Origin: Clostridia bacterium
GTDB lineage: Bacteria; Bacillota; Clostridia; Christensenellales; CAG-138
DNA length: 64,000 bases
Assembly: GCA_017407205.1 (NCBI GenBank)
Contig: JAFQXA010000016.1
Span: forward strand, 1 to 64,000
Direction of reading: 5' to 3'
Part shown: one piece after another, positions 3,966 through 39,150 of the stretch
How positions within the stretch are numbered: the first letter of the stretch is position 1
Layout of the letters: every line of letters starts with the position of its first letter
Made by a program: the position numbers and the translations under genes
Notes under the pieces: model-generated
What the model was told of the DNA's origin: nothing
Databases searched by the model: none
The model's input: the letters and a program-made list of their open reading frames with translations, nothing else

Positions 3966-4625
3966 TTATGAAAATGACAATATAATCTTGCCTAAAAGCC
4001 CTGTTGCCATCAGTATGCCGACAAGCACAAGAAAGCTTCCGCTTATTATGTTTATTATTTTGTAGTTGCGTTTTATAAAATTGAATGTCCCTTTAAGCTT
4101 GTCGATAAGTACGGCACTCAAAACAAACGGGACACCAAGTCCAAGGGAATATACAAGAAGCATTGCCATGCCTTCAAGTATTTTTCCTTGCTGTGAGGCA
4201 AGCATTAAAGCAGAGCCCAAAAACGCACCGACACAGGGCGTCCAGCTTATCGAGAATACGGCACCAAAGAGCATTGTTGAGAAAAATCCGCTTCCTTTGA
4301 TTTCTTTTTGGGTGGTATTGTTAAAAAGATTGAGCTTGAATACGCCTGAAAAGTTCAGCCCGAAGACTATCACAATCAAGCCTGTCACTATATTGACTGC
4401 GGTTTGATAGCGTGATAAAAGCGCACCGAGGCTTGCTGCAAAAGCACCGAGCAAAATAAAAACGAGCGTGAAGCCAAGAACAAAGCCCAAGCTTTTGACC
4501 AGTGTTTTAGCCGTATTTTCTTCATTGCCACTTGCAAAGTATGAAATGTATACGGAAAGAAGCGGCAGAAGACAGGGCGATATAAATGTTATAAGTCCTT
4601 CTAAAAATGAAATGATGTATTGCAT
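3966..4625 (-). CDS. ccdA: CcdA-family thiol-disulfide transporter
   Basis: 219 aa, almost wholly hydrophobic with six predicted membrane spans. It moves reducing equivalents from cytoplasmic thioredoxin across the membrane. The two family cysteines are visible: C18 in the SPCLLP motif of the first span and C131 in SWTPC of the fourth. The ATG at 4625 is preceded by GGAG at 5-nt spacing, so the 16 extra upstream codons are not used. It is the first gene of a two-gene unit with the TlpA-like protein. Confidence 0.92.
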   Translation of the reverse strand: MQYIISFLEGLITFISPCLLPLLSVYISYFASGNEENTAKTLVKSLGFVLGFTLVFILLGAFAASLGALLSRYQTAVNIVTGLIVIVFGLNFSGVFKLNLFNNTTQKEIKGSGFFSTMLFGAVFSISWTPCVGAFLGSALMLASQQGKILEGMAMLLVYSLGLGVPFVLSAVLIDKLKGTFNFIKRNYKIINIISGSFLVLVGILMATGLLGKIILSFS

Positions 4626-6578: not shown

Positions 6579-7067
6579 CTATCTCAAATATCCCATGTTT
6601 TTGAGCAAACGGGCAAGCACGTGGAGCCTTTCGCATAAAAGCTCGCTGTCCCTGCTTAAAGCGTTCAAAAGAAGTTCAATATCTTCATCAATATTTTCAT
6701 TACGATCGCATACTTCAAGCGTCATAGCGTCGCCCTGAAGCCCTATGCGGTCTATTTTTGTGTCGTCCTTATTGTAAAGCGACGGAAAACGATAGCTTTC
6801 CTCCGTGAAATACTGCATTGAGCGTGCAACTACTATTGCAAGGTCAAGAACGCGGTGCAAGGGAAGCTCCTCGCTCTGCCTGCTCCACTTATTGCCCGTA
6901 TATCTCCATACTTTGGCGGAGGCATCAACTCTGCCGCGGTCATTCCACTGTGCAAGACCTACGGATAACCCTTTGGCTTCACTCTTGTAAGCTGTTCTGC
7001 CGTCAACATTCTCATAGTTTTCACAAACGATAACGGGCTTGTGTTTTAAGCTTGCGGGAATCTTCAT
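6579..7067 (-). CDS. Conserved hypothetical protein, DUF6530-like
   Basis: 162 aa, soluble. The N-terminus (KIPASLKHKPVI) and the GLAQWN segment resemble the Firmicute family I know as DUF6530; that assignment is from memory and not certain. No catalytic motif is evident. ATG 7067 has AAGGAG at good spacing. It ends one base before the converging lipoprotein gene, with no terminator between them. Its promoter region carries phased short repeats (7080-7118), so it is probably controlled by a repressor. Confidence 0.65.
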   Translation of the reverse strand: MKIPASLKHKPVIVCENYENVDGRTAYKSEAKGLSVGLAQWNDRGRVDASAKVWRYTGNKWSRQSEELPLHRVLDLAIVVARSMQYFTEESYRFPSLYNKDDTKIDRIGLQGDAMTLEVCDRNENIDEDIELLLNALSRDSELLCERLHVLARLLKNMGYLR

Positions 7068-7079
7068 TTTTCTTCTCCT

Positions 7080-7128
7080 TAGTAAATCAGTACATCAGTA
7101 GTTTACTAAATTACTAAATTCATGTCAA
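7080..7128 (-). promoter_or_regulatory. Promoter with overlapping iterated operator-like repeats
   Basis: On the minus strand TTGACA (7123-7128), 17 bp, TAAACT (7100-7105). On the plus strand ATCAGTA occurs at 7086-7092 and 7094-7100 and TTACTAAA at 7103-7110 and 7111-7118, both at 8-bp pitch. TAGTAAA (7080-7086) pairs with TTTACTA (7102-7108). The repeats cover the spacer and the -10 box, as a repressor site would. Confidence 0.55.
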
Positions 7129-7187
7129 GGGGCAAAAAAGTGGCGAATGAGCAAAAAACGTAGATAAACAGGGCGAAAAACGAGTGG

Positions 7188-7250: not shown

Positions 7251-7601
7251 ATGCCAGGACTCATAGTTAACGAATTGGGAAAAATAACATTCTCGGACGA
7301 ATTGCTTGCTTCTATTGCAGGTTATGCCGCTATGGAAAATTACGGTATCGTCGGAATGAGCTCAAAGAAAGCAAAAGATACATTGTTCCAACTTATCGGC
7401 ACTGAAAACAATAAGCGCGGTGTTGTTGTAACCACATCGGATGAAGAGATGGATATAGATTTGTATGTTACTTTGATGTACGGTGTTTCATTGCCGGCAG
7501 TTGCGGAAAACACAAGAAAGAATGTCCGCTACAGAGTAGAAGAAATGACGGGAATGAAAGTTCGCAATGTGAACATCCATGTCGATTCGATAAAAGTATA
7601 G
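7251..7601 (+). CDS. Asp23/Gls24 (YloU-like) family protein
   Basis: 116 aa, the full length of the small YloU type. It has the family pattern of an N-terminal GKITFSDELL segment, a central AMENYGIVGMS, and a C-terminal VRNVNIHVDSIKV. AAGGAGG lies 8 nt before ATG 7251. Members are envelope-associated or involved in membrane and lipid homeostasis; YloU itself has no settled biochemistry. It is directly followed by fakA and recG, the arrangement found in Bacillus and many Clostridia, which supports the call. Confidence 0.88.
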   Translation: MPGLIVNELGKITFSDELLASIAGYAAMENYGIVGMSSKKAKDTLFQLIGTENNKRGVVVTTSDEEMDIDLYVTLMYGVSLPAVAENTRKNVRYRVEEMTGMKVRNVNIHVDSIKV

Positions 7602-7617
7602 GGAGAGACTTTAGAAA

Positions 7618-9255
7618 ATGGCTAATATCAATACAATAAGCGGTGCACGCCTTAAAGAGATGCTTTTGATGGGCGCTGCATTGCTTGAGCAGAACAAGGC
7701 TGTTATAGACTCGCTTAACGTGTTCCCTGTTCCTGACGGTGATACAGGCACAAATATGTCGATGACTATGCAGGGCGCTGTAAAAGAGCTTCGCGCACTT
7801 TCTGATGATGCAGGTGCAGGTGATGTTGCAAAGGCGGCATCGGTCGGCTCATTAAAGAGCGCACGAGGTAATTCAGGCGTTATACTTTCACAGATATTGC
7901 GTGGCTTTGCAAAGGAAATTGGCACATCAAAAGAGCTTACGGGTGAGATGTTCGCACTTGCTTTGACAAGCGGTACACAGAGCGCATACAAAGCTGTTAT
8001 GAAGCCAAAGGAAGGTACAATGCTTACCGTTGCAAGAATGGCAAGCGAGGCGGTTTCTGTGGCTTCACAGAAAGACGCAAGCCTTGAAAACCTTATCAAT
8101 GTAATGGTCGAATCCGGTGATGAAGCGGTCAAGATAACTCCCGACTTGCTTCCTGTTTTGAAGGAAGCGGGCGTTGTTGATTCAGGCGGCAAGGGACTTA
8201 TGACGGTGCTTCGCGGTTTCAAGCTCGTGCTTGACGGTGAGAGCATTGAAAACTATCAGGAAGCAATTCCCAAAGAGGAAATACAGTCAAATGCCGATAT
8301 TACTCTTGAAGATGTAAACGATATCAAGTTCGGCTATTGCACAGAGTTCTTTATAATTCATCTTGTTGAAACATTTAAAGAATCAGACCTTGATGCTTTC
8401 CGTGACAAGCTCATGAGCCTTGGTGACTCGGTTGTTGTTGCATATGATGCCGACTTTGTAAAGGTTCATGTTCATTCAAACGAGCCGGGCAATGTATTGC
8501 AGTTTGCTATGCAGCTTGGCGAGATTGACAAGGTAAAGATTGAAAATATGCGTGAGCAGAACCGTGAGATTACTGCAAAGATGAAAGCCAACGAGAAAGA
8601 AATGGCATTTATAGCAGTAAGCTCGGGCAGCGGTATTGAGGAAATATTCAAAGACCTCGGTGCTTCAAGCATAATCACGGGCGGACAGACGATGAACCCG
8701 AGCATTGATACTATCGCTCATGCAATAGCAAGAGCAAACGCAAGGAATGTTTTGGTTCTGCCCAATAACAGCAATATCATACTTGCGGCACAGCAGGCGG
8801 CAGAGCTTGCAAAGTGCAACGTCAAGGTTATCCCCTCACGCAATATAATGCAGGGTATCTCCGCTGCGATAGCATACGATGAAACAGCAAGTGCCGATGA
8901 AAACGAAGAAGCTATGAAAGAAGCTTTAGCCGGTGTAAACTCAGGTGCTGTAACTTTTGCAGTCCGCGATACCACATACAACGGTCTTGATATAAAAGAA
9001 GGCAACATCATAGGTATGCTCAACGGCAGAATAGAGGTTGTCGGTGAGGATGTTGAAACTGTTTCGCTTGAGCTTACACGCAAGCTCATGGAGCTTGTGG
9101 ATGAGCCGACATTTACGGTTCTTTACGGCGAAGATGTAAGTGAAGAGAGTGCAAACGCCTTCACAGAAAAAGTAGGGGCAGAATTCCCCAATGCAGAATG
9201 TGCAGTTCAGATGGGCGGTCAGCCGCTTTACTATTACCTCTTCTCGGTAGAATAA
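7618..9255 (+). CDS. fakA: Fatty acid kinase FakA (DAK2 domain, YloV-like)
   Basis: 545 aa, full length. The N-terminal DhaL/DAK2 domain carries the ATP-Mg motif PDGDTGTNM (residues 39-47) and SARGNSGVILSQ. A central linker and a C-terminal DegV-like domain complete the FakA layout. FakA phosphorylates fatty acids held by a FakB protein, feeding exogenous fatty acids into phospholipids; no fakB is in this window. It is 16 bp behind the asp23-like gene, and its stop overlaps the start of recG (TAATG). Confidence 0.92.
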   Translation: MANINTISGARLKEMLLMGAALLEQNKAVIDSLNVFPVPDGDTGTNMSMTMQGAVKELRALSDDAGAGDVAKAASVGSLKSARGNSGVILSQILRGFAKEIGTSKELTGEMFALALTSGTQSAYKAVMKPKEGTMLTVARMASEAVSVASQKDASLENLINVMVESGDEAVKITPDLLPVLKEAGVVDSGGKGLMTVLRGFKLVLDGESIENYQEAIPKEEIQSNADITLEDVNDIKFGYCTEFFIIHLVETFKESDLDAFRDKLMSLGDSVVVAYDADFVKVHVHSNEPGNVLQFAMQLGEIDKVKIENMREQNREITAKMKANEKEMAFIAVSSGSGIEEIFKDLGASSIITGGQTMNPSIDTIAHAIARANARNVLVLPNNSNIILAAQQAAELAKCNVKVIPSRNIMQGISAAIAYDETASADENEEAMKEALAGVNSGAVTFAVRDTTYNGLDIKEGNIIGMLNGRIEVVGEDVETVSLELTRKLMELVDEPTFTVLYGEDVSEESANAFTEKVGAEFPNAECAVQMGGQPLYYYLFSVE

Positions 9256-34496: not shown

Positions 34497-35558
34497 ATGA
34501 GAGAGAAGAAGTATTACAGGCTTTATTGCGATATAAAGACAAAAATATTGAACGGTGAATACAGGGCGGAAGAAAAGCTCCCGTCAAAACGAGTCATGGC
34601 GGATAAATCAGGGTGCAGCACAATAACGGTAGAAGCAGCTTATCGGCTTCTTCTGGATGAGGGTTATATAAGGGCGGTGGAAAGAAGCGGCTTTTATGTG
34701 TGCAATATAGAGAGCTTGTTTGACGGCAAAAACCCGATTGCTCAAAAAACACTTACACTCATTGAAGAAAAAACGGACGGTGTTTCGCATGATTTTGAGT
34801 ATTCTGTCTGGTTTAAGACGATAAGAAAGGTAATTGCGGATAACGGTGAAAGGCTTTTTATAAAGTCGCCCAATGAGGGCTGTGCTGTTTTGAGAAATGC
34901 AATTTCAGAATATCTTTTAAGGTACAGGGGAATGTATGCAGAGCCTGAGCGTATAATCATAGGTTCGGGCGCGGAACAGCTCTATGAAACTGTTGTCCGT
35001 ATGGTTGGAGCATATAAAAAGTACGGAATAGAATATCCGTCATACTCACAGATAGAAGCAGTTTACAGGGATTCGGGGGCAGAAGTTGTGCATCTTTTGA
35101 TGGGCACGGACGGAATAGAAAGCGAAGCTTTACGGGATGCGGACATTGATGTTTTGCACGTAACGCCTTTTCACAGCTACCCTACAGGAGTTACGGCAAG
35201 CATAAAAAAACGCTATGAGTATTTGAAGTGGGCTCAAAGTAAAGAAAACCGATATATTGTTGAGGATGATTTTGACAGCGAGTTTTTTATGCCCGGGCGT
35301 CCGATTGAGTCACTCTATTCACTTGACAGTAAAGACACGGTAATATACATGAACACATTTTCAAAAAGTCTGTCACCGTCAATGAGAATGGGGTATATGA
35401 TACTCCCGGAAAGCCTTATTGATGTATACAATGAAAAGCTTAAGATGTATTCCTGCACGGTGCCCGTACTCGACCAATATGTTTTGGCAGAGTTCATATC
35501 AAGCGGAAGCTTTGAGAGGCATTTAAATAGGGCGAGGAAGTTACTTCGTGACTTTTAG
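34497..35558 (+). pseudogene. PdxR/MocR-type transcriptional regulator, truncated
   Basis: 353 aa. Residues 1-~70 are a GntR winged helix (LPSKRVMADKSGCSTITVEA). Then comes a class I aminotransferase-like domain with VEDDFDSEF and the PLP lysine region FSKSLSPSMRMGYM. Full-length relatives have roughly 460-480 residues; this one stops right after RHLNRARKLL, so about 110 C-terminal residues are missing. The frame changes where a GC-rich inverted-repeat element (from about 35566) and the bacteriocin-type cassette begin, which suggests the gene was cut by an insertion. The DNA-binding and PLP regions remain, so partial function is possible. AT-rich DNA (34393-34496) separates it from its divergent target. 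Confidence 0.75.
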
Positions 35559-35565
35559 TAATTGG

Positions 35566-35670
35566 GGCTCTGCCCCGTACCCTGATTACTTTTTGGTAAA
35601 AAGTAATCAAAAACGGGTGGGAAATATAATATTAACCCCTTCGCCACGACAAGGTGACGAAGGGCTTTAA
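35566..35670. repeat. Inverted-repeat-rich intergenic element at the cassette edge
   Basis: Three nested inverted repeats in about 100 bp: GGGGCTCTGCCCC, TGATTACTTTTT-GG-style palindrome with GTAAAAAGTAATCA, and CCCTTCG(c)CAC/GTG(a)CGAAGGG. It has no coding potential. The first two resemble small non-autonomous elements that I recall as common in clostridial genomes. It lies exactly where pdxR loses homology, and its last hairpin may also end transcription of the exporter gene. Confidence 0.55.
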
Positions 35671-35692
35671 AACTTCAATCTATAAAAACGCC

Positions 35693-37951
35693 TTATTGTT
35701 TGTTATATAAATCAAAATACTTACCTTGTTTTGACATAAGCTCTTGATGTGTTCCGCACTCAACAATCTCGCCTTTATCCATTACAATTATTCTATCGCA
35801 GTTCTTGATTGTGGAAAGCCTGTGTGCAATGATAATAGTGGTAACATTTTTGTTCAGACTAAAAATGGTGTCTTTTATCGCATTCTCTGTTATCGTATCA
35901 AGATTACTTGTTGCTTCATCAAAGATAATCAGCTCGGGCTTTCTGAGCAATGCTCGTGCTATTGCGATGCGTTGCTTTTGACCGCCGGACAGATTTTTAC
36001 CGTTTTCATCAAGAAATGCTTCGTATCCAAAAGGTAACGTATTTATAAATTCATCTGCCCTAACCATTGTACAAATGTTTTTAATCTCTTCATCGGAAAT
36101 ATTTTTATTTCCTAACAAAAGATTATTCTTCACAGTGTCTGAGAACAAAAATGTATTTTGGTCTATATACGCAATTTTATTTCTTATTATATCCAATGGA
36201 ATATTGTCTAAATCATTGCCATCTATCAAAATTGAACCCTTTTCCGCTTTATAAAACCTCAGTAAAAGCTTAGCTAAAGTTGTTTTTCCGCATCCGCTTT
36301 CACCTACAATGGCAATCTTCTCGCCTTTGTTGATTTTTAAAGATAAATCTCTGAGTACCAATTCATGATTTCCGTAGCGAAAATCTATATTTGAAATTGA
36401 TATATTCTCAAACGGCAGTGCCTTTTCAAGTTGTGTATCGGATTCTTCGACCGTAATATCCAAGACATCGTTCAATCTTTCCGCTGCAATTATCGCTGTT
36501 TGCATCATTGGCTGCAAACTGATCAAATTCTTAACGGGCTCTGTAAAGTACGCCAGCAATGCATAGAAAGTAACAAGCGAACCTACTGTTACTTTATTGG
36601 CAAGTACCATGCCGAAGCCCACCCACAATATAATAATCGTTCCGATAAGCTCCACGGAATCGCATAGTGCATCCTGCGAAACGGATATTACACTGTTCTT
36701 GAACACCGAGTTTATAAGCCGTGTAAATTTAGAATCATTTTTCTCTTTAAAAGGCAGCTCGGCTGTATATGCCTTTATTGTTTCAACGCCGTCAATGGAT
36801 TCTTTTAAATAAGATTGTACTCTTGCGTTGTTTTCCATGACTTCGCGGTTGATATTTTCAAGCGGTTTTTTGTAAAAAAGAATAATAATAGCATACAAAA
36901 CTATAACCACCAACGAGATATAGAACAAAATGCTGTTTTCAATATAAAGAATAACTCCGCAGCCGATGACCATAATTGAATCAAGTATCAATGTAAGTGT
37001 TGCACCCGACACGGCATTTCTAATGGAATTTGCATCCGAAAATCGCGACAGATATTCTCCTGTTTTGCGTGTGTTAACAGTGGATATCGGTAAATCCATT
37101 ATATGATTGTAATAAGGAATCATAAGGCGCATATCTATTTTTTTGGATACAAGCGATATTAAATAGCCGCGCAAAAACTGAATCGCAGCTTGCAAAACAT
37201 AAAGTGAAATTAAACAAATAAAGAATGCGTTAAAGTTGGAAGCGTTATCGGTAACAAAATTTAAGATCTTGTCAAAAACGCTTTGTGATTCTTCCAAACT
37301 TTCTTCCGTGATATGTTCATGCTCATCTGCACAATCATCCTCGCAGATAACCGCTTCATGTGAAGTGTAAAAGTCATCAATTATAATCTGAAAAACATAG
37401 GCTCCCATTATACCTATGACGGAAATAATCAACGATAGGGCAAGAACCGATGTAAGCTTTATATATTGACCTCTTAAAAGCGAAAAGAACTTCTTAAGAC
37501 CGCCTGTTTTATAATTGCCCTCTTGAAAGGCTTCCGTTTTTTCAAAAGCAATCACATATCCGTCCCACATTTGCGTAAATTGTTCAACGGTATATTTTAC
37601 CTTTCCTTTGGCAGGATCGCATATAACGATTTTATTGTTTTTTATATTCAATACAACAACAAAGTGCTGCATATAGTCTTCATTGATAATATGAGCAACA
37701 AAAGGAAAGCCGATCTCGCCCTTGCTGATACTTTCAAGCAGCTCGTCCGTATTTCCCGAAAGAGCTTCTGCTTTCAAACCGATTTTTTGGGCAGCTTCAC
37801 AAAGACCGTATAGGTTTGCACCGTTTTGGTCTGTTTTTGTAAGCTCTCTGAATTTTGAAATAGGATGTTTTAATCCATAATGCGATGCTATCATTGACAG
37901 GCACGCTGCACCGCAATCACGTTCGTCATGTTGTTTGGTGATTTTCAACAT
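35693..37951 (-). CDS. Peptidase-containing ABC exporter (C39 peptidase, PCAT)
   Basis: 752 aa. Residues 1-~125 are a C39 double-glycine peptidase with Q7, catalytic C13 (QHDERDCGAAC), H96 and D112. Six membrane segments follow, then the nucleotide-binding domain with GESGCGKTT, signature LSGGQKQR and Walker B LIIFDEATSNLD. It cleaves leaders after Gly-Gly and exports the peptide, here surely the one encoded 80 bp upstream. Between the first two membrane segments (about 197-226) is an acidic insertion with two Cys (C203, C207) and an HEH motif, not usual in the family. It is the second gene of a minus-strand two-gene unit. Confidence 0.93.
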   Translation of the reverse strand: MLKITKQHDERDCGAACLSMIASHYGLKHPISKFRELTKTDQNGANLYGLCEAAQKIGLKAEALSGNTDELLESISKGEIGFPFVAHIINEDYMQHFVVVLNIKNNKIVICDPAKGKVKYTVEQFTQMWDGYVIAFEKTEAFQEGNYKTGGLKKFFSLLRGQYIKLTSVLALSLIISVIGIMGAYVFQIIIDDFYTSHEAVICEDDCADEHEHITEESLEESQSVFDKILNFVTDNASNFNAFFICLISLYVLQAAIQFLRGYLISLVSKKIDMRLMIPYYNHIMDLPISTVNTRKTGEYLSRFSDANSIRNAVSGATLTLILDSIMVIGCGVILYIENSILFYISLVVIVLYAIIILFYKKPLENINREVMENNARVQSYLKESIDGVETIKAYTAELPFKEKNDSKFTRLINSVFKNSVISVSQDALCDSVELIGTIIILWVGFGMVLANKVTVGSLVTFYALLAYFTEPVKNLISLQPMMQTAIIAAERLNDVLDITVEESDTQLEKALPFENISISNIDFRYGNHELVLRDLSLKINKGEKIAIVGESGCGKTTLAKLLLRFYKAEKGSILIDGNDLDNIPLDIIRNKIAYIDQNTFLFSDTVKNNLLLGNKNISDEEIKNICTMVRADEFINTLPFGYEAFLDENGKNLSGGQKQRIAIARALLRKPELIIFDEATSNLDTITENAIKDTIFSLNKNVTTIIIAHRLSTIKNCDRIIVMDKGEIVECGTHQELMSKQGKYFDLYNKQ

Positions 37952-37980
37952 TGTATTATCCCTTAATTAAGCTTTTAGGT

Positions 37981-38013
37981 GATTGCCATACAAACTATTC
38001 TTATATGGCAATC
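37981..38013 (-). terminator. Attenuating hairpin between peptide and exporter genes
   Basis: Stem GATTGCCATA/TATGGCAATC with a 13-nt loop and no T tract on the minus strand. It would let part of transcription continue, giving more peptide message than exporter message. Confidence 0.6.
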
Positions 38014-38031
38014 ATAATCAACTAATTATTC

Positions 38032-38214
38032 TTAGTTAACAGAACACCAAGTTTTTTTAAATGGGCAATAACTAACAAAACCGCAGTGATCTATTCTTAA
38101 GGACAATTTAGCCAAAAACTTCGTCCATCCCCAAGCTGTTTTACCACAAGCACTGCATGTTGCTTTTGCACCGCCTTCAACATTACGCATTTCCATAGCG
38201 TTAACTTTCTTCAT
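38032..38214 (-). CDS. Double-glycine leader peptide, cysteine-rich bacteriocin-like precursor
   Basis: 60 aa. The 15-residue leader MKKVNAMEMRNVEGG ends in Gly-Gly and has the hydrophobic spacing (V4, M7, M9, V12) read by C39 peptidases. The 45-residue core is cationic (6 Lys, 1 Arg, 1 Asp) with cysteines at core positions 5, 8, 29, 35 and 42, three Trp, and a central TKFLAKLSLRI segment that could form an amphipathic helix. AGGAGGTG precedes the ATG. No modification enzyme is adjacent, so disulfide bonds are the likely cross-links; the odd cysteine number leaves one free or allows a dimer. No known bacteriocin class is recognised. A signalling role is the alternative. Confidence 0.8.
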   Translation of the reverse strand: MKKVNAMEMRNVEGGAKATCSACGKTAWGWTKFLAKLSLRIDHCGFVSYCPFKKTWCSVN

Positions 38215-38330
38215 TCTATTTCACCTCCTTTTCAAAAAAGTGTGTGTATAGCAAGATGGAATAGTCATCATACTATTTAAACTGTTTGTTTTCTTGCAAA
38301 ACCGAATAAAAAACAGTAGGGCAAATCAGG

Positions 38331-38376
38331 AAATGTAACATTTTGTTACATTTATGATTGTAACATAACGTTACAA
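38331..38376. promoter_or_regulatory. Paired operator dyads between peptide gene and XRE regulator
   Basis: Dyad 1 (38331-38353): AAATGTAACA, TTT, TGTTACATTT. Dyad 2 (38358-38376): TTGTAAC, ATAAC, GTTACAA. Both contain TGTAAC(n)GTTACA with centres 25 bp apart. They lie just before the XRE start and about 120 bp before the divergent peptide gene, and are the probable binding sites of the XRE protein. TACAAT at 38372-38377 could be its -10 box. Confidence 0.7.
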
Positions 38377-38397
38377 TAAAGGCAACAGGTGAATTTC

Positions 38398-38601
38398 ATG
38401 ATAGGTCTTAAAAACATTCGAAAAAAGAGAAATCTAAATCAACAAAAAGTTGCAATGGATTTAAATATATCGAGAGAAGCATTGTCTTATTACGAAAACG
38501 GCAAGCGAGAGCCATCCTTGGCTTTGTTGTGTGCCATGTCGCAATATTTTAATGTATCAATTAACTATTTGATCACCGGTGAAGAGTTTAAAAAGAGATG
38601 A
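38398..38601 (+). CDS. XRE-family transcriptional regulator
   Basis: 67 aa, a single Cro/CI-type helix-turn-helix (LKNIRKKRNLNQQKVAMDLNISREALSYYENGKREPS), with a short C-terminal helix and no sensor domain. ATG 38398 is preferred over GTG 38389 because AGGTG lies 6 nt upstream of it. It is divergent from the peptide/exporter unit and follows two palindromes that it probably binds, repressing itself and the peptide promoter. Confidence 0.88.
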   Translation: MIGLKNIRKKRNLNQQKVAMDLNISREALSYYENGKREPSLALLCAMSQYFNVSINYLITGEEFKKR

Positions 38602-38650
38602 GACCTTTCAGTTTACAAGCTGTATTTGATGTTGAACAAGGATAAAAATA

Positions 38651-38702
38651 AGAAACTCCGCATTAAAATGCGGAGTATTCATATAACTTATTCAATATTT
38701 AC
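38651..38702 (-). repeat. Dispersed terminator repeat, copy R2 (minus orientation)
   Basis: Read on the minus strand: AATATTGAATAAGTTATATG arm, then ACTCCGCATT/AATGCGGAGT hairpin (38655-38676) and T-rich sequence. It terminates the minus-strand gene ending at 38731. The arm is nearly the same as in copy R3. Confidence 0.8.
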
Positions 38703-38730
38703 ACGAGAAGACAGGGCATTGTCCCATACA

Positions 38731-39150
38731 TTAATCTATGTACTTTTTCATAAACTCGGGCAAGCCCTCAGCACCGTGATTTATGCTGAATACGAGGTTC
38801 AAGCCACGCTTTTGCGCGAAAGCTTCGAGCTTTTCAAAAAGTGCTTCGAGAGTATCGAGGGGATGGTCAACAATTTTTGTAAAACCGTCAATAAAAACAT
38901 ATTCAAGGTCAAAGTCCTGCGCTGCCAAGCCCGAGATAAATCCGAAGAACATCTTGGGACCGTCAATACTGTATTCTGAAGCGACAATAAATCTTATTTC
39001 ACGATGAAGCTCGAACATATACTGTTCGTCATTATCTATAAAAACGATACTTCCCTTTGCTGTTGAACGAGTGTCATTTGCAAGGTCTAAAATTCTCTTT
39101 GTATTGCCTATGCCTTTTTCACCGGCTATTATACGAATTATGGTAATCAC
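38731..39150 (-). CDS. Small P-loop-like protein, function unknown
   Basis: 139 aa. Begins ITIIRIIAGEKGIGNTKRI, a Walker A-like loop GxxGxGxT with Asn where the usual Lys stands and Lys after the Thr. YVFIDGF near residue 85 could be a Walker B strand. Similar clostridial proteins are sometimes mislabelled as PilT-like. The start is uncertain: the GTG at 39150 directly abuts AGGA, too close for normal initiation, and no other standard start codon fits. It is a single gene ended by repeat R2. Confidence 0.6.
   Translation of the reverse strand: MITIIRIIAGEKGIGNTKRILDLANDTRSTAKGSIVFIDNDEQYMFELHREIRFIVASEYSIDGPKMFFGFISGLAAQDFDLEYVFIDGFTKIVDHPLDTLEALFEKLEAFAQKRGLNLVFSINHGAEGLPEFMKKYID

Follow-up and report, generated by a model that had tools for sequence, protein, structure and literature searches.

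The locus

The window, a stretch of 64,000 nucleotides from a gut bacterium, carries a compact cassette in which a small double-glycine (GG) peptide and a C39-peptidase ABC exporter (PCAT) lie on one strand and a small XRE-type regulator is divergent from them. Its features are the following.

35515–38730, no strand: segment missing in the sister species G001; homology breaks off near 35514 and picks up again near 38730
35637–35664, − strand: terminator-like hairpin 3' of the exporter gene
35693–37951, − strand: C39-peptidase ABC exporter (PCAT), 752 aa, from Pfam and NCBIfam; triad C13/H96/D112
37220–37375, − strand: enlarged TM1–TM2 loop of the exporter (residues about 193–244) with CEDDCADEHEH; putative extracellular metal site
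38032–38214, − strand: double-glycine peptide precursor, 60 aa; open reading frame with ribosome-binding site
38230–38262 (boundaries approximate), − strand: conserved upstream element GACTATTCCATNTTGC, then a TATAC-like box, 5' of the ribosome-binding site of the peptide
38334–38350, + strand: operator-like inverted repeat TGTAAC-N5-GTTACA, first copy, perfect
38359–38375, + strand: second copy, perfect; shares bases with a promoter-like site of the − strand
38398–38601, + strand: divergent XRE-type single-domain repressor, 67 aa, ATG at 38398; HTH_3 E 1e-16

The precursor, whose gene has a AAAAGGAGGTG ribosome-binding site, is composed of the leader MKKVNAMEMRNVEGG, with GG at positions 14–15, and a 45-residue core, AKATCSACGK...CSVN, that has cysteines at positions 5, 8, 29, 35 and 42 and a net charge of +6. 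The leader consensus of PCATs is L-12/E-8/L-7/G-2/G-1 (PMC6959990), and the window leader fits it with V-12, E-8, M-7, V-4 and GG. With a hydrophobic residue at −12, E at −8, a hydrophobic residue at −7, GG and an adjoining C39 exporter, the precursor is a double-glycine peptide; it is not a chance reading frame, since its leader matches the consensus and the cassette recurs in another genome (L042) with 14 of the 15 leader residues identical. Cleavage after GG15 by the cognate C39 domain is predicted. The peptide matches no known bacteriocin family in Pfam, where the best value (0.045) fell to an unrelated family, or in NCBIfam, which gave no match.

The exporter combines Peptidase_C39, ABC_membrane and ABC_tran domains, and with 624.8 bits against TIGR01193 (curated cut-off 523.85) it is a member of the PCATs. 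C13, H96 and D112 are unchanged throughout the aligned relatives. Its C39 domain is the sole one found in the source genome, which is 80% complete, and its nearest solved relative is PCAT1 (phmmer E 1e-194). Thus, the preliminary description of this DNA, which had read from the letters a 60-residue frame with a Gly-Gly leader and a cationic five-cysteine core, an exporter with a complete C39 triad and a divergent 67-residue XRE protein, was right in all three genes.

With regard to control, both perfect TGTAAC-N5-GTTACA copies lie just 5' of the XRE gene, and of 100 shuffled versions of the window, not one has two copies. Promoter-like sites of the kind that overlaps the second copy are not commoner than in shuffles. 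The GACTATTCCATNTTGC element has similar counterparts in the upstream regions of L042 and L043 and, with its TATAC-like box, is the probable promoter of the peptide; with this conserved element, closer to the ribosome-binding site, as the better candidate, a promoter predicted at 38385–38357 (−) ranks as a weak match. These operators and promoters are putative, being sequence matches. The terminator-like hairpin is weak by itself (three such sites found, 2.2 expected).

Flanking genes, relatives and distribution

In G001, the MocR regulator and the 139-aa gene that flank the cassette adjoin directly. In the window, the MocR/PdxR-like regulator (34497–35558, 353 aa) is about 90 residues short of the NCBIfam model at its C-terminus. 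Was it truncated by the cassette? This is ruled out, because the G001 protein, encoded where there is no cassette, is equally short (354 aa); its gene adjoins a pyridoxal-kinase-like gene. On the other side, the 139-aa gene (38731–39150) has no Pfam match above the cut-off; its P-loop-like stretch, GEKGTGKT in G001, is GEKGIGNT in the window, so the window gene may be decaying.

A genome-wide scan gave one direct relative, L042, from an Oscillospiraceae MAG of roe deer colon: a divergent XRE gene, a peptide whose leader differs from that of the window by four synonymous changes and one non-synonymous change, and an exporter that is 74% identical. Exporter searches added L043, with an exporter about 46–47% identical, a divergent XRE gene and two peptides directly upstream, and a peptide-profile search added L094/L098, where two peptides accompany an exporter of 48% identity and a tyrosine recombinase lies upstream. 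All six precursors of these four genomes, the window included, lie directly upstream of a related exporter and keep both GG and CxxCG. The outcome that the preliminary description had named as fatal, no homologous peptide beside related exporters, is therefore contradicted by such pairs in three other genomes, and the pairing that it expected is conserved. Among the relatives the leader is better conserved than the core, and the cores diverge fast. Two further loci are more distant in cargo: the L045 peptide is related but has no CxxC, and in L106 a Cys-free peptide stands beside an exporter whose reading frame is interrupted by a frameshift or an assembly error.

No modification gene adjoins the peptide/exporter pair, and no immunity gene was seen beside it in the window, L042, L043 or L098 cassettes, as had been noted for the window before.

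Exporters with E ≤ 1e-130 to that of the window occur, the window itself counted, in three of the 396 genomes sampled from the order and in 15 of the 398 sampled from the phylum. At the phylum level the exporters have short loops, and where nearby GG peptides were readable, their cores are of other kinds. No exporter relatives were found in viral contigs, and peptide searches of plasmids, phages and viral contigs found no relatives of the peptide. Weak peptide matches (E 0.005–0.1) in genomes of the family and order, of which L004 and L011 were inspected, and further matches from g13 and g9 (L111, L112, L114, L115) were judged to be chance or antisense. A search of the genus of G988 gave no homologue close enough to gauge purifying selection on single cysteines.

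Two details of the relatives can be added. In L042, the cassette lies between direct repeats at 4194–4451 and 7624–7881 (189 nt at 87% and a further 54 nt at 96%); their 54-nt part resembles an inverted-repeat element, and they could be either an insertion mark or a scattered genomic repeat. In L098, the two tandem peptides (7415–8014) have near-identical upstream regions and very different cores, which suggests a duplication followed by rapid core change.

A ligand-rich loop in the exporter

The window system shares with PCAT1-CtA (PDB 4ry2, 4s0f, 6v9z) and the TIGR01193 bacteriocin_ABC subfamily the order of C39 and ABC parts, the catalytic triad and the leader consensus. It differs in having about 53 residues between TM1 and TM2, where PCAT1 has 16 (the phmmer alignment breaks at exporter 195/249, PCAT1 201/218), and also in its CEDDCADEHEH ligand cluster, its zinc-finger-like cargo and its lack of an HlyD accessory gene. 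Given the known topology of this exporter type, the loop between TM1 and TM2 is expected to be extracellular. Acidic clusters with His are a feature of loops in zinc-transporting and zinc-binding proteins such as ZIP and ZnuA. The cluster of the window exporter may be a metal site, here placed in a peptide exporter.

Does the loop go with the cargo? Among 29 aligned exporters, the four that stand beside CxxCG peptides have TM1–TM2 loops of 52–61 residues with 4–7 His plus Cys and 12–21 Asp plus Glu, and their ligand-rich stretches read CEDDCADEHEH (window), CEDNCEEEHEH, EDEHDHNHDHEHE and ENEHHDDHED. The other 25 have loops of 15–20 residues with no Cys and at most one His. In the L106 exporter, whose peptide is Cys-free, the loop is long, with two His as its only His or Cys residues. 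A tree computed after removal of the loop columns unites the four in one supported clade (SH-aLRT 100), to which L045, long-branched and without the loop, also belongs. The loop may hence have a single origin with one loss, and, given this shared ancestry, its correlation with the cargo rests on few independent events.

A zinc-finger-like core

The preliminary description had read a five-cysteine, disulfide-linked peptide. The comparison does not support this, nor five cysteines as a family feature: the remaining five cores contain 2, 3, 2, 4 and 2 Cys, and the CxxCG near the N-terminus is the sole invariant. Each of the six cores has at least two later Cys or His residues, as follows (core numbering).

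Window: H28/C29/C35/C42
L042: H40/H48
L043, both cores: H20/H25, one with an extra C11
L098: H28/C29/H34/C37 in one core, H37/H56 in the other

These later ligands alternate between Cys and His, which fits a zinc site better than fixed disulfides. Both L043 cores have exact C2H2 spacing, C-x2-C-x12-H-x4-H; the window, L042 and L098 cores combine CxxC with other, non-canonical C/H spacing. Pfam matches of the L043 peptides include zf-C2H2, under the curated cut-off (E 0.019 and 0.005), and the best PDB matches of an eight-peptide profile are zinc fingers (2i13, E 1e-10; 1mey, 5e-6), scores that belong to repeat proteins in which no single stretch passes alone.

The preliminary description had also proposed a structure prediction of the core. 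AF2 placed the CxxC of the window peptide in a hairpin followed by a helix, a beta-beta-alpha arrangement, from a two-row alignment at low confidence (pLDDT 64.7); the L042 peptide, from its sequence alone, gave the same arrangement with the CxxC in the hairpin, again at low confidence (pLDDT 61.7). Neither Foldseek nor VIA-align found a significant fold match for these models. The likeness to the C2H2 zinc finger (PF00096) lies in the L043 spacing and in the beta-beta-alpha of the low-confidence models, and the differences in the sub-threshold match, the bacterial and exported nature of the peptide and the ligands of the window core, C/C then H/C with non-canonical spacing. Taken with the census of CxxCG and later ligands, these matches and models make zinc binding by the core likely, if putative.

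What is the cassette for?

The best reading is that the product would be an exported, zinc-binding, zinc-finger-like mini-protein of the double-glycine/PCAT kind and that its exporter would be adapted to a metal-binding cargo. As no immunity gene is seen in any cassette, the product may be a bacteriocin, a signal or a metal scavenger, and bacteriocin activity of the window peptide is putative.

An ordinary class II bacteriocin, stabilised by disulfides and exported by a protein whose loop is irrelevant decoration, would account for the GG leader, the bacteriocin_ABC-subfamily exporter, the cationic core, the leader conserved more than the core and the presence or absence of the cassette between genomes. 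We consider it unlikely: an odd number of cysteines in the window, 2–4 in the other cores with CxxCG alone in common, later ligands that alternate between Cys and His and a loop that follows the cargo type all speak against it, and the lack of an immunity gene in four cassettes weakens it further. Less probable again is a secreted, zincophore-like peptide that scavenges or delivers zinc and is not antimicrobial. It would explain why a ligand-rich peptide goes together with a ligand-rich exporter loop in cassettes that have no immunity gene; against it, the cassette contains neither a gene for zinc uptake nor a regulator of the Zur type, few genomes carry it, and the core diverges fast under a kept leader, unlike a housekeeping metallophore. 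A pheromone for which the XRE protein or some remote protein serves as receptor, which a small exported peptide beside a divergent XRE regulator might suggest, is improbable, because the 67-aa window protein is a single HTH domain with no peptide-binding repeat region, the XRE proteins of the relatives vary in length and sequence while peptide and exporter correspond, and L043 and L098 have two different peptides per locus.

How, then, might a zinc-binding mini-protein be made and released? Probably, the XRE protein acts on the two TGTAAC-N5-GTTACA sites to repress its own gene and, perhaps, the peptide–exporter operon that diverges from it. Upon derepression, the leader would dock on the C39 domain and be cut after GG15, and the ABC part would thread the 45-residue core out of the cell, as follows from the family. 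PCAT cargo is unstructured inside the cavity (PMC6959990), so a metal-dependent fold would form outside: there, C5, C8 and the later His/Cys residues would hold a metal, most likely zinc, around which the core would fold as beta-beta-alpha. At the exit, the loop rich in His, Asp, Glu and Cys may hold zinc for the emerging, unfolded peptide or hand it over; alternatively, it may keep the metal of the peptide away from the producer. The product would most likely be a competition peptide, i.e., a zinc-dependent bacteriocin-like mini-protein, with self-protection through the exporter or an unlinked gene; of all the steps, this one carries the least certainty.

The whole account, an exported zinc-finger-like competition peptide with a dedicated PCAT, we judge to be somewhat better than an even bet. 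A zinc-finger-like GG peptide with a dedicated PCAT deserves more confidence when taken alone, and the antimicrobial role deserves less than the whole. A bolder proposal, that these are a new class of bacterial zinc-finger mini-proteins, metal-loaded outside by the His/Cys-rich loop of their own C39 exporter, is speculative, and we lean against it. If true, one exporter would be protease, pump and metallochaperone at once, and it would help to mature its cargo after transport, unlike PCATs as wide conduits that bind no cargo specifically beyond the leader (PMC6959990). No published description of a zinc-finger-like GG peptide/C39 system was found in the openly licensed literature; zinc-finger-type secreted peptides would be a little-explored scaffold in gut bacteria.

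Other double-glycine peptides

Class IIb-type GG peptides with related PCATs (e.g., L067, L069, L073, L079, L080 and L085) also have a double-glycine leader and a related exporter. In contrast to the window type, their cores are Gly/Ala-rich membrane-type helices with no CxxC; the exporters are short-looped, and several loci have HlyD partners or CAAX-type proteins nearby. L099 has yet another arrangement: a GG peptide (6938–7144) with CPYCG and later His/Cys residues, encoded 4.5 kb downstream of a C39 exporter that lacks the enlarged loop. This pair speaks against a tie between loop and cargo, although other genes lie in between. The peptide gene shares its operon with genes for HlyD-like and Ig-like proteins, and its product may represent a second kind of zinc-finger-like GG peptide.
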